DNA of 64,000 bases from Streptomyces pristinaespiralis (GTDB lineage: Bacteria; Actinomycetota; Actinomycetes; Streptomycetales; Streptomycetaceae), in the NCBI RefSeq assembly GCF_001278075.1, contig NZ_CP011340.1:7251501-7315500 (forward strand). Direction: 5' to 3'. The notes beneath the pieces are model-generated. The model was not told where the DNA came from, did not search any database, and saw only the letters and a program-made list of their open reading frames with translations. A program made the translations under genes and the position numbers. Shown here piece by piece: positions 43,959 through 60,510 of this stretch (its first letter is position 1; each line of letters begins with the position of its first letter).

Positions 43959-45431
43959 TCAGAGACGGGCCGCGGCCTCCTTGGCGTTGCCCTCCGTGTC
44001 AGCCGCCGCACCTCCGGCGAGGTGGTCGGCGGGGCCGTCCGGGTCGGTCAGCCGGTTCAGCCGGCCGGGCACGTCGAACCCGACGAGCACGACGACGATG
44101 ACGGTCCCGGCGAAGGTGAGCACCGCGAGGGAGCGGCCGAGATCCATGCCGGACGCGAGATGCGCACCGAGGACCGGCGCGACGGCGCCGCCGAGCGCAC
44201 CCACGTTGTAGGTGAAGCCGAGCGCCGCGCCCCGGCTCTCGGTCGGGAAGTGGCCGCCGATCCAGCGGGGCAGCAGGCCGGAGATGCCGAAACTGGTGGC
44301 CTGCAGCACGAACAGCAGCGCGCCGAGCAGCAGCAGGTTGTCGTCGACGGCGAAGACCGGGAAGACGAACGCGAGCGACGCGAGCAAGGTGATCGCGTAG
44401 GCCTTCCTGACGCCGATCCGGTCGCCGAGGAAGCCGGCCGCCCAGCAACCCGCCATGGTGCCGAAGCCGGCGAAGTACAGGACGTCGGTGACCTGGTCCG
44501 TCGTGTAGCCGAGCTCGGTCTTGAGGTACGTGGGCAGCAGGGCCTGGATGGGCCACGAATAGAGGAAAGCGAAGAAGATCGTCACGATCATCGCCACGTA
44601 GAGCACCCAGCCGCGCGGGCCGCCGAGCTGGACGGCGAAGGCGGCCAGGCACACACCGGCCACCACGGAGAGCACGGGGACCATGCCGTTGCCGAGCGGA
44701 GTGAAGACCGCGAACAGGGCGACCGACGCGACGGCCGCCAGGACGACGTTGGCCGTGGCGCGGGCCGGCGTGAGGAACAGCGGGCGGAACGGGGCGGGCC
44801 GTGCGCCCCGCTCCTCGACGGTCTCGCTCCACTCGGCCGCCTCGGGCAGCGCCCGGCGCATCCACAGGGCGATGACGATCGGCACGAGTCCGATGTAGAA
44901 CATCCAGCGCCAGCCGAGCGTGGGCACCACCCAGGTGTGGACCTGGGCGGCGAGCACGGAGCCGATCGAGAAACCGGAGATCAGGAAACCGCTGGCCCGG
45001 CTGCGGACGCGGGCGGGCCAGCTCTCCATCACGTAGGTGGCGCTCGCGCTGTACTCGCCGGCCATGCCCATGCCGATGGCGAGGCGGGCGACGAACAGGC
45101 TGGTGTAGTCCCAGGCGAAGCCGCAGGCGAAGGTGCCCAGCGAGTACAGCAGGATGCTCAGCACCATGGAGAGCTTGCGGCCGTAGCGGTCACCGACCGC
45201 GCCGAGTATCGCGCCGCCCAGCCAGCGGGTGATGAAGGCGCCGGAGACCAGGCTCGCGGCCTGCACCGTGCTCAGGCCGAACTCGTCACTGATCTCGGTC
45301 AGCACCAGAGTGATCAGCACGAAGTCGAAACCGTCGAGGACGTAGCCGATCCAGGCGGCGGTGAAGGACTTCCACTGGGTGGGGGTGACCTCGCGGTACC
45401 AGGGGAGCGAGGGCTTTGCGGTGTCGTGCAC
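43959..45431 (-). CDS. nanT: MFS transporter, NanT-like (sialic acid)
   Basis: A 490-residue permease with twelve membrane helices plus extra hydrophobic segments in the middle. It begins like the SHS/NanT branch (QWKSFTAAWIGYVLDGFDFVLI), with the MFS motif GDRYGRKLS after helix 2 and LGDRIGVRKAY in the second half; LPEAAEWSE lies in the central loop. E. coli NanT brings in Neu5Ac with protons and has the same extra central helices. GTG 45431 with GGAGA upstream. It is the last gene of nanA-nanK-nanE-nanT, so sialic acid is the likely substrate; aromatic-acid transport is the alternative. Confidence 0.78.
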   Translation of the reverse strand: MHDTAKPSLPWYREVTPTQWKSFTAAWIGYVLDGFDFVLITLVLTEISDEFGLSTVQAASLVSGAFITRWLGGAILGAVGDRYGRKLSMVLSILLYSLGTFACGFAWDYTSLFVARLAIGMGMAGEYSASATYVMESWPARVRSRASGFLISGFSIGSVLAAQVHTWVVPTLGWRWMFYIGLVPIVIALWMRRALPEAAEWSETVEERGARPAPFRPLFLTPARATANVVLAAVASVALFAVFTPLGNGMVPVLSVVAGVCLAAFAVQLGGPRGWVLYVAMIVTIFFAFLYSWPIQALLPTYLKTELGYTTDQVTDVLYFAGFGTMAGCWAAGFLGDRIGVRKAYAITLLASLAFVFPVFAVDDNLLLLGALLFVLQATSFGISGLLPRWIGGHFPTESRGAALGFTYNVGALGGAVAPVLGAHLASGMDLGRSLAVLTFAGTVIVVVLVGFDVPGRLNRLTDPDGPADHLAGGAAADTEGNAKEAAARL

Positions 45432-45488
45432 GGTCTCTCCAGAGTGCGAGGCGGGGCTCGACGGTGAGCCACGCCCGCGGGCAGTACG

Positions 45489-58553: not shown

Positions 58554-59566
58554 TCCGGCTCGACCACGTGCACGTACGTCACAAGGCCCGCAGCGGCGGC
58601 ATCTGGCGCAGGGACTCCGTCCACGCCCTCACCGACGCCTCGCTGCACGTCGAACGGGGCGAGATCGTGGGTCTCGTCGGTGAGTCCGGCTGCGGCAAGT
58701 CGACCCTCGCCCGCGTCCTGACCGGCCTGCAACGCCCCACCGAGGGCGAGGTCGTCTTCCGCGGCCGGGACCTGTGGACGATGTCCGCCGCCGAGCGGCG
58801 CGGCGACTTCGGCTCCGCCGTCGGCGTCGTCTTCCAGGACCCGTCCACCGCCCTCAACCCGCGGCTGTCCGTACGGCAGATCCTGCGCGACCCCCTCGAC
58901 GTCCACCGCCGAGGCACGCGGCAGGAGCGCGAGGAACGCGTCGAGGAACTGACCGAGCTGGTCGGCCTGCCGGGCCACACCCTCGGCGCGCTCCCGGGCC
59001 AGCTCTCCGGCGGCCAGCGCCAGCGGGTCGCCATCGCCCGCGCGCTGGCCCTCGAACCCGAGCTGATCGTCGCCGACGAACCGACCAGCGCACTCGACGT
59101 CTCCGTGCGGGCCCAGGTGCTCAACCTCCTCGTCGAGCTGCGGGAACGGCTCGGCCTGGGCATGGTCTTCATCTCGCACGACATCCAGACCATGCGCTAC
59201 CTCGCCGACCGGCTCGCCGTGCTGTACCTCGGCCGGATCGTCGAGGAGGGCCGCGCCGACGATGTCACCCGGGCGCCCAGGCACCCGTACACCGAGGCCC
59301 TGCTCTCCGCGACCCCCAGCCTGCTCGAGACCACCGAGCGGATCGTGCTCACCGGTGCGGTGCCGTCCGCGACCCGCCCGCCCAGCGGCTGCCCCTTCCG
59401 CACCCGGTGCTGGAAGGCCGACGACGAGTGCGCCACCGTCTTCCCCGCCGCGACCCTGGCCCGGGGCGAGCACCGCTGGCACTGCGTCCACCCCCAGAGG
59501 GACGACACCCCGTCCACCGCGACCCGGCCGTCCGAGCGGACGGCCGCAGCAAGGAGCACCACGTGA
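58550..59566 (+). CDS. ABC transporter ATPase (DppF type)
   Basis: A 338-residue ATPase. Walker A GESGCGKS, Q-loop VFQDPSTALNPRLSV, signature LSGGQRQRVAIARAL, Walker B LIVADEPTSALD, switch His in ISHDIQTM. The C-terminal oligopeptide domain with Cys cluster (GCPFRTRCWKADDEC) is present. GTG 58550 overlaps the fused gene's stop (GTGA). Works as a heterodimer with the ATPase half of that fusion. Confidence 0.93.
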   Translation: MIRLDHVHVRHKARSGGIWRRDSVHALTDASLHVERGEIVGLVGESGCGKSTLARVLTGLQRPTEGEVVFRGRDLWTMSAAERRGDFGSAVGVVFQDPSTALNPRLSVRQILRDPLDVHRRGTRQEREERVEELTELVGLPGHTLGALPGQLSGGQRQRVAIARALALEPELIVADEPTSALDVSVRAQVLNLLVELRERLGLGMVFISHDIQTMRYLADRLAVLYLGRIVEEGRADDVTRAPRHPYTEALLSATPSLLETTERIVLTGAVPSATRPPSGCPFRTRCWKADDECATVFPAATLARGEHRWHCVHPQRDDTPSTATRPSERTAAARSTT

Positions 59567-60510
59567 ACGACCGCGCCCCCCGCTACTCCGGCGTCATCCC
59601 GCCCGTGGTCACACCGCTCACCGAGGACGGTGGCATCGACCGGGCCTCGCTCGAGCGGCTGGTCGGCCACCTGCTGGACGCCGGCGTCACCGGCCTGTTC
59701 GTACTGGGCAGCTCGGGCGAGACCGCCTATCTGACCCCCGACCGGCAGGACGAGGCCGTACGGATCGTCACCGCGACCGCGGGCGGCCAGGTTCCCGTCG
59801 TCGTCGGCGCGATCGAGACGACGACCGACCGGGCCGTCGAGCGCGGACGGGCCGTCACACAACTCGGCGCGGACGCCGTGGTGGCCACCGCGCCGTTCTA
59901 CACCCGCACCGACGCGGCGGAGACCGAGCGGCACTTCCGGCAGGTGGCGGCCGCACTCGACCTGCCGCTGCTCGCCTACGACGTGCCGGTGTGCGTGCAC
60001 AGCAAGCTCGACCCGGACATGCTCCTCGCCCTCGCGGCGGACGGTGTCCTCGCCGGCGTGAAGGACTCCAGCGGCGACGACGGTTCCTTCCGCCGGCTCG
60101 CCCTCGGCGCCCGGGAGCTCCCCGGCTTCTCCGTGCTGACCGGCCACGAGCTGGTCGTCGACGCCATGATGCTGTGCGGCGCTGACGGCGTGGTGCCCGG
60201 CCTCGGCAACGTCGACCCGCACGGCTACGTACGGCTCCACGAGGCGTCGCTGCGCGGCGACTGGGCCGCCGCCAAGGCGGAGCAGGACCGGCTCGTGGCC
60301 CTCTTCGACATCGTCCGCGCGGCCCGTCCCGGCACCGCGTCGGCCACCGCCGCCGGACTCGGCGCGTTCAAGACGGCGCTGACGCTGCTCGGAGTGATCG
60401 CCACGAACGCCGTCAGCGCGCCGATGCGGCGTCTCGACGAGAGCGAGACCGAGGCGATCGCGGGCTGCCTCGAGCGTGCCGGGCTGGCCGGGGTGGCGCC
60501 CGGGAGCTGA
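59563..60510 (+). CDS. Second N-acetylneuraminate lyase/DapA-family aldolase
   Basis: A 315-residue aldolase closely similar to NanA at 47140. Schiff-base Lys in LAGVKDSSGDDGS, Tyr in PLLAYDVPV, loop GSSGETAYLT and GLGNVDPHGY. GTG 59563 overlaps the ATPase stop (GTGA) with AAGGAG upstream, so it is made together with the transporter. The two copies share APFYTRT and the overall plan; they may differ in preference (for example Neu5Ac against Neu5Gc or O-acetylated forms), or one may serve another 2-keto-acid. That cannot be read from sequence. Confidence 0.86.
   Translation: MNDRAPRYSGVIPPVVTPLTEDGGIDRASLERLVGHLLDAGVTGLFVLGSSGETAYLTPDRQDEAVRIVTATAGGQVPVVVGAIETTTDRAVERGRAVTQLGADAVVATAPFYTRTDAAETERHFRQVAAALDLPLLAYDVPVCVHSKLDPDMLLALAADGVLAGVKDSSGDDGSFRRLALGARELPGFSVLTGHELVVDAMMLCGADGVVPGLGNVDPHGYVRLHEASLRGDWAAAKAEQDRLVALFDIVRAARPGTASATAAGLGAFKTALTLLGVIATNAVSAPMRRLDESETEAIAGCLERAGLAGVAPGS

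Follow-up and report, generated by a model that had tools for sequence, protein, structure and literature searches.

Why should a Streptomyces chromosome hold two importers and two lyases for sialic acid side by side? The question is raised by a stretch of 64,000 nucleotides from Streptomyces pristinaespiralis (contig NZ_CP011340.1, positions 7,251,501 to 7,315,500), called the window below, in which coordinates count from the first letter. An earlier note on this DNA had described a complete sialic acid scavenging island, and scans of the window proteins against Pfam and NCBIfam, together with matches to PDB chains and gene starts refined by eye, recovered all of its gene families at 43959-60510 as 14 genes in 16.6 kb. 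We hold with high confidence that these genes constitute a Streptomyces sialic acid scavenging island that would lead from secreted enzymes to cytosolic breakdown, and in which two nan modules are placed under one predicted operator. Its features are as follows.

43959..45431 (-): NanT-type (ST1) sialic acid importer of the major facilitator superfamily (NCBIfam NF003024, Pfam MFS_1)
45489..46172 (-): NanE, N-acetylmannosamine (ManNAc)-6-phosphate 2-epimerase (Pfam NanE)
46169..47143 (-): NanK, candidate ManNAc kinase of the ROK family (Pfam ROK)
47140..48099 (-): NanA1, probable N-acetylneuraminate lyase, DHDPS/NAL (PDB 5c54)
48139..48165 (-): operator 1 in its 27-bp form, GACATAAGACATCTTACGTCTCATGTC, between nanA1 and FCD1
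48250..48939 (+): FCD1, NanR-like regulator of the GntR/FadR subfamily (Pfam FCD, GntR)
49024..50490 (-): GH33 sialidase, predicted to be secreted, with NEW3-type C-terminal domain (PDB 1eut; Pfam BNR_2, NPCBM_assoc)
50523..51809 (-): SGNH/GDSL esterase with laminin-G-like domain (Pfam Lipase_GDSL_2, Laminin_G_3)
51873..52853 (-): CE7 (AXE1) acetyl esterase (Pfam AXE1, PDB 1vlq)
52912..52938 (-): operator 2, before the CE7-GDSL-sialidase unit
53024..53755 (-): FCD2, NanR-like regulator of the GntR/FadR subfamily (Pfam FCD, GntR)
53816..53842 (+): operator 3, between FCD2 and the ATP-binding cassette (ABC) importer
53909..55507 (+): SatA-type substrate-binding lipoprotein, SBP_bac_5 (PDB 5za4/5z99/5yyb)
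55589..56539 (+): SatB-type permease (Pfam BPD_transp_1)
56541..58553 (+): fused permease-ATPase subunit (Pfam BPD_transp_1, ABC_tran and oligo_HPY in one frame)
58550..59566 (+): second ATPase of the ABC importer (42% identity with the fused subunit's ATPase half)
59563..60510 (+): NanA2, second probable N-acetylneuraminate lyase (Pfam DHDPS, PDB 5c54)

The three transcription units of the earlier note stand as three enzyme and transport units. They are accompanied by two regulator genes, of which FCD1 is transcribed away from nanA1 and FCD2 away from the ABC importer. The predicted operator GACATCTKACGTCT occurs in exact form at 48145-48158 (-), 52918-52931 (-) and 53823-53836 (+). Hence each enzyme or transport unit is preceded by one exact site, as the proposal of a shared operator had it, and a search of the 8.53-Mb genome, a single contig, with up to 1 mismatch returned these 3 sites and no others, the reversed control giving 0. 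Within the window only the exact sites count, because the 9 matches with up to 3 mismatches are at chance level (mean 6.3 in 100 shuffles, 12 of which had 9 or more).

Relatives' loci were taken from 392 Streptomyces genomes (the genus set) and from a named set, which overlap in organisms. Over 55 loci, our own island and 54 from relatives (1.03 Mb), the operator was found 54 times exactly, 37 times with one mismatch and 50 times with two, the last count including overlapping registers of one palindrome; the reversed control gave 0 at each level. With up to 2 mismatches it lay within 300 bp upstream of SatA, CE7 and NanA1 in 29/29, 26/26 and 29/37 cases in the genus set, and in 65/65, 58/59 and 32/57 cases in the named set. 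The 8 genus-set NanA1 genes without it belong to 8 loci of a compact form, in which NanA1 follows GH33 in one row, and the 25 in the named set likewise adjoin GH33, with no FCD1. The 27-bp pattern, which consists of four half-sites, was matched with up to 5 mismatches before 28/37 NanA1, 28/29 SatA, 24/26 CE7 and 3/28 GH33 genes, as well as in 85 of 3000 windows of 320 bp drawn at random from these loci, the real sites being left in. A site of the same type, with four mismatches to the 27-mer, precedes satA in an Arthrobacter locus (L149; G and L numbers are our handles for genomes and loci). To the eye, the operator is unlike both the TKGT/ACMA boxes of the FadR subfamily and the TGGTATAW repeats of NanR (PMC4494728).

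The two regulators share 41% identity. At the NanE loci that were fetched, 21 genomes had both, 19 had FCD2 without FCD1, and 3 (G023, G288 and G357) had FCD1 without FCD2; two of these 3 carry a SatA gene elsewhere. Since the motif occurs with either regulator alone, FCD1 and FCD2 probably both bind the shared operator.

The substrate of the island is indicated by the ABC importer. The best PDB chains for its lipoprotein were 5za4/5z99/5yyb with about 608 bits, followed by a chain with 154 bits, and the comparison with Haemophilus sat that the earlier note had proposed revealed 58% identity over 478 aligned residues to 5z99, the H. ducreyi SatA with bound N-acetylneuraminic acid (Neu5Ac) (PMC11364026). 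The ligands of H. ducreyi SatA are Neu5Ac and N-glycolylneuraminic acid (Neu5Gc) (PMC10017367). The contact residues of H. ducreyi SatA include His333, a His-Ser pair and an Arg; of the 12 histidines in the aligned part of 5z99, five correspond to histidines in the window protein, the published numbering not being transferable to the chain. A twin-arginine signal and a lipobox, LSAC, were recognized by eye. Among the 392 Streptomyces genomes SatA orthologues are set off by a gap, identity falling from 71% in the orthologues to 43% in the next proteins. Judged from this SatA-orthologous SBP_bac_5 protein and the accompanying permeases and ATPases, the importer is of the SatABCD or ST3 type.

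With SatABCD of H. ducreyi and siaEFGI of C. glutamicum it has in common an SBP_bac_5 protein, dipeptide-type permeases and ATPases, sequences having been compared with SatA alone. It differs from them in its lipoprotein, which is of the twin-arginine translocation type by eye, in its fused permease-ATPase with a second ATPase, in NanA2 as the last gene of the unit and in the nearby CE7. The second importer, NanT, scored 662.2 bits against the sialate:H+ symport family NF003024 (cut-off 604) and 416.8 bits against TIGR00891, below the cut-off of 552.9. E. coli NanT (ST1) presumably belongs to the former subfamily, from which the window protein is distinguished by sharing its operator with an ABC importer.

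Two observations on transport proteins in the relatives may be added. Another widespread SBP_bac_5 protein is 39-43% identical to SatA and was matched at E 1e-100 in 108/392 Streptomyces genomes that have no SatA orthologue. In L042, L045, L056, L058 and L061, an additional ABC ATPase with 40-42% identity to the second ATPase of the Sat importer lies between FCD1 and FCD2, which suggests that a further transporter was inserted within the island in those relatives.

The GH33 family is characterized by an RIP motif, Asp boxes and a catalytic Glu and Tyr, all of which are found in the window sialidase. Its best PDB match was 1eut, which we take to be the M. viridifaciens sialidase (421.5 bits); the YRIP, DENKT and YSTL motifs align with that chain, and the window protein has the Glu and Tyr at the positions that vary in the related chains 2bzd and 1wcq. 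The BNR_2 and NPCBM_assoc domains were matched in a longer open frame, and secretion was read from the N-terminus by eye. No other gene in the genome matched a sialidase family above the cut-off. The adjacent GDSL esterase is probably secreted, because its N-terminus has an RR-type signal by eye; its gene is rarer than that of CE7 and was seen at the loci of 7 genus-set genomes. The CE7 protein matched Pfam AXE1 with 333 bits and, in PDB, best the acetyl xylan esterase/cephalosporin-C deacetylase 1vlq (355 bits). It contains the CE7 motifs RGQ, GxSQG and HE, read by eye in the window protein and present also in relatives. Inspection by eye and hydropathy revealed no evident signal peptide, so that the protein is probably cytosolic. 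Neither the GDSL nor the CE7 protein matched the SASA/NanS family in Pfam at E 0.001.

Both lyases had the same best PDB match, 5c54 (299 bits for NanA1, 287 bits for NanA2), which we take to be CgNal, the characterised N-acetylneuraminate lyase of C. glutamicum, in agreement with the key-residue numbering of the CgNal paper; chains that are presumably the E. coli lyase reached only about 82-84 bits. The two are 53.7% identical and both retain, like CgNal, the catalytic Tyr138 and Lys166 (CgNal numbering; APFY and KDS motifs) and a Glu at the Glu198 position, whereas both have Leu at the Thr199 position. They differ consistently from each other at a substrate-binding motif. The carboxylate motif GXXGE is GSSGE in NanA2, and so in 40/40 distinct NanA2 sequences, whereas NanA1 has Ser for the second Gly (GSTSE in the window protein, GS[TS]SE in 71/74 distinct sequences). 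A recognition loop reads LTGSEL in 74/74 distinct NanA1 and LTGHE[LV] in 39/40 distinct NanA2 sequences. Of the genus-set loci with SatA, 24 extend 1.5 kb or more past the last ATPase gene (one further locus was too short), and of these 13 had both lyases, 9 NanA1 only and 2 NanA2 only. That some loci show NanA1 or NanA2 as their sole lyase makes it probable that both are genuine. We also noted a variable site at the position of Val212 in CgNal, Ser208 in E. coli by our alignment: at least 32/40 distinct NanA2 sequences of relatives have GADGSVPG there, and the window NanA2 and most NanA1 have GADGVVPG.

NanE matched its Pfam family with 164.8 bits (cut-off 27) within the longer open frame 45489-47168, and NanK matched Pfam ROK with 185.9 bits. 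The genes nanA, nanK and nanE are thus clustered at 45489-48099 as in a canonical nan cluster. The claim that the island is complete holds for the genes for release, import and breakdown; nagA and nagB are encoded elsewhere in the genome, with one above-cut-off match each. For the 2,7-anhydro-Neu5Ac route, no NanOx or ST7-type gene was seen among the identified genes, no search having been aimed at NanOx.

These assignments suggest the following pathway. The secreted sialidase would release sialic acid, and the secreted SGNH esterase would strip O-acetyl groups outside the cell. The lipoprotein SatA would supply an ATP-driven importer, with NanT operating in parallel with protons, and inside the cell CE7 may take off the remaining O-acetyl groups. 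Cleavage of sialic acid by NanA1 or NanA2 would then leave pyruvate and ManNAc, from which NanK and NanE would produce N-acetylglucosamine 6-phosphate, and NagA and NagB would complete the pathway. The NanR-like FCD1 and FCD2 are predicted to act at the shared operator as repressors of every unit, and a pathway ligand would release them. A role of the whole island in sialic acid use, as the earlier note had proposed, is well supported by the SatA, lyase and sialidase matches and by the operator over the 55 loci.

Several results weigh against these assignments. FCD1 and FCD2 score 100.2 and 106 against the NCBIfam NanR family, below its cut-off of 260. The best NCBIfam family for NanK is that of ManNAc kinases, at scores under the cut-offs (NF003461, 131.6 against 283; NF047821, 120.2 against 450), and in PDB the putative ManNAc kinase 2aa4 (108 bits) nearly ties with the glucokinase 3vov (107.5 bits), so that NanK is a candidate named from its ROK domain and its context. 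NanA1 departs from GXXGE and is below the NCBIfam nanA cut-offs (NF003164, 101.7 against 281; TIGR00683, 90.6 against 382). Such low scores would follow from the kinship with CgNal, which groups with DHDPS and is without the E. coli recognition residues (PMC5380162).

The island is of a known kind, since a survey by Li and Huang (2022) and a growth study of S. olivaceus describe such clusters. According to the survey, nan clusters occur in about 13% of actinobacterial species, and the nan-positive Streptomyces species are from free-living habitats, save one of unknown source (PMC8754123). The same survey reports a FadR-type regulator in 226/234 Actinomycetia clusters, ABC importers in 88%, mostly of type ST3, and ST1 in 18 species (PMC8754123). 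In S. olivaceus, growth on sialic acid was confined to the free-living clade, which has the nan cluster (PMC8749437). The Streptomyces clusters resemble the window in their clustered nanA, nanK and nanE, ST3 or ST1 importer, FadR-type regulator, sialidase in some and accessory nanS; seven species have an extra nanA beside the cluster, 55-57% identical to the cluster copy and in this like the NanA1/NanA2 pair (PMC8754123, PMC8749437). They differ in that ST1 and ST3 together, two regulators, the operator and a link between esterase and importer are not mentioned in the parts of the main text consulted (PMC8754123, PMC8749437). In the openly licensed literature, searched mostly by titles and the openings of abstracts, we found no description of the operator, including any operator of a Streptomyces NanR, of the two-regulator form or of the CE7-importer linkage, nor of CE7 with sialic acid beyond a pneumococcal case. 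What is added here is the composite make-up, the consistent difference between the lyase motifs, the tie between CE7 and the ABC importer, and a relative free of the island.

From gene content and order, the island is a composite of two nan modules under one operator, and relatives have these modules separately. NanE was matched at E 1e-20 in 54/392 Streptomyces genomes; for the weakest match (G044, 47% identity) no other nan gene lay in the vicinity. SatA orthologues of at least 71% identity were found in 37/392, and 36/37 had NanE, the remaining genome (G197) being 81% complete; NanE without SatA was seen in 18 genomes. NanT was located at the NanE locus in 22 cases with SatA in the genome and in six without. 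In the named set, 64/65 SatA loci were from records named Streptomyces or [Kitasatospora] papulosa (78-86% identity) and one was from Arthrobacter (59%). The compact form, NanE-NanK-NanA1-GH33-CE7-FCD2 followed by SatA-B-CD-F, was observed at 8 genus-set loci (L067-L069, L071, L072 and L074-L076), where NanT, FCD1 and NanA2 were not found in the fetched 20 kb. It also occurs at the named loci of S. albidoflavus (L129) and of S. olivaceus (L144). Other combinations are FCD2, SatA-F, NanA2, NanK, NanE and NanT in one row (G385) and SatA-F, a NanA2-type lyase, NanK and NanE in one row (Arthrobacter L149).

These arrangements bear on the suggestion that two importers and two lyases adapt the organism to several forms of sialic acid. 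The duplicated genes for lyase, importer and regulator could instead be redundant leftovers of two complete nan clusters that merged, a reading to which we give an even chance; it is simpler and explains the doubling equally well. It agrees with the modules that stand apart in the 8 compact loci (NanA1, FCD2, CE7, GH33, SatA-F), in G385 and in Arthrobacter, with the 9 SatA loci that have NanA1 only and the 2 that have NanA2 only, and with the same operator motif at FCD1-only and FCD2-only loci. It is less easily reconciled with the joint presence of both lyases, with clade-specific motifs, in 13/24 loci, and with both-lyase clusters that are without NanT in the fetched stretch (L050, L054 and L060). 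Some specialisation may still be involved, as the consistent differences between the lyases and the linkage of CE7 to SatA would allow.

CE7 (at least 69% identity and 491 bits) was found in 31/392 Streptomyces genomes, all 31 SatA-positive and with CE7 995-1243 bp from SatA. The pair stays together even where it is on a different contig from NanE (G147) or about 7 Mb from NanE on the same contig (G357). An exception is a partial match elsewhere in the SatA-negative genome G023 (69% over 285 residues, 413 bits); the other matches among those listed had at most 61% identity. With G023 counted as an exception, Fisher p values for the association were 8e-39 for all genomes and 9e-9 for NanE-positive ones, both too small owing to shared ancestry. 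CE7 is absent from 6/37 SatA-positive genomes and from the Arthrobacter locus, and is thus an addition rather than essential. The accessory nanS of Streptomyces clusters, named as an acetyl-transferase/hydrolase (PMC8754123), is probably the CE7 gene, which is the sole candidate among the traced genes in L129 and L144.

A precedent of a kind is found in pneumococcus, where an acetyl xylan esterase is listed adjoining nanA (PMC3509027). This Axe is intracellular and releases acetate from sialomucin in vitro, and its deletion was without effect on growth on mucin (PMC5352144). Likened by description, the two systems share an acetyl esterase gene beside sialic acid genes and a protein without signal peptide, the sialomucin deacetylation being Axe's activity; the window CE7 differs in being under the sialic acid operator and tied to an ABC importer. 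We tentatively propose, rating the chances as somewhat below even, that the SatA-type importer is a dedicated Streptomyces route for O-acetylated sialic acids, which would be imported acetylated and deacetylated by the cytosolic CE7 before the lyase, with NanT carrying the non-acetylated form and the two lyases tuned to different inputs.

That CE7 and the GDSL enzyme act instead on other O-acetylated sugars, such as xylan-like or cell-wall glycans, and are co-regulated passengers of the island seems to us unlikely. The names of the solved CE7 relatives, acetyl xylan esterase or cephalosporin-C deacetylase, speak for such substrates, as do the missing growth phenotype of Axe on mucin despite its activity on sialomucin (PMC5352144) and the six SatA-positive genomes without CE7. 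Against it stand the operator within 300 bp before CE7 in 26/26 and 58/59 cases and the position of CE7 beside SatA in 31/31 genomes, even with NanE on another contig or 7 Mb away. It is very improbable that the island imports a different nonulosonic acid, such as 2-keto-3-deoxynononic acid (Kdn), given the 58% identity of SatA to a binder of Neu5Ac and Neu5Gc and given NanE and the NanK candidate, which are required for N-acylmannosamine and unneeded for the mannose that Kdn would yield. Li and Huang leave the catabolism of other nonulosonic acids open (PMC8754123).

The island is flanked by a sortase gene and a gene for 153 aa on the left and by Caa3_CtaG and phosphofructokinase genes on the right. 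A flank search over 61 genomes was muddied by many sortases, and G030 was the genome examined further. Here, about 250 bp separate the stretch that matches the window as far as 43591 from the one that matches it from 60570 on (L155:5341-5596). No nan protein was found in the fetched locus, which ends at a contig end, and G030 is outside the NanE-positive set. The gap holds 80 bp that share 79% identity with the sialidase gene at its 3' end and lie in the right order, which in this one genome hints at loss of the island by deletion rather than at a site never filled. Adjoining the island in the window is a small secreted protein like the subtilisin inhibitors of Streptomyces (60646-61206 (+), by eye only). 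Outside the island, Rfam matched the 5' ureB sRNA RF02514, presumably an antisense RNA family known from Helicobacter, at 30181-30468 (-) with 69 bits, which may only reflect urease coding sequence, and the c-di-AMP riboswitch RF00379 at 25438-25601 (-) with 38.1 against a gathering score of 38.

Sialic acid use was long regarded as a mark of animal-associated bacteria, and free-living actinomycetes with islands of this kind raise the question of its source in soil. With its predicted operator the island offers a precise regulon confined to one place, and it would allow a clean decision on whether doubled importers and lyases reflect specialisation or merger only. The linkage of CE7 to SatA leads to a concrete prediction for the uptake of O-acetylated sialic acids; if true, CE7 would be a family of sialate O-acetylesterases whose importer partner is fixed genetically.

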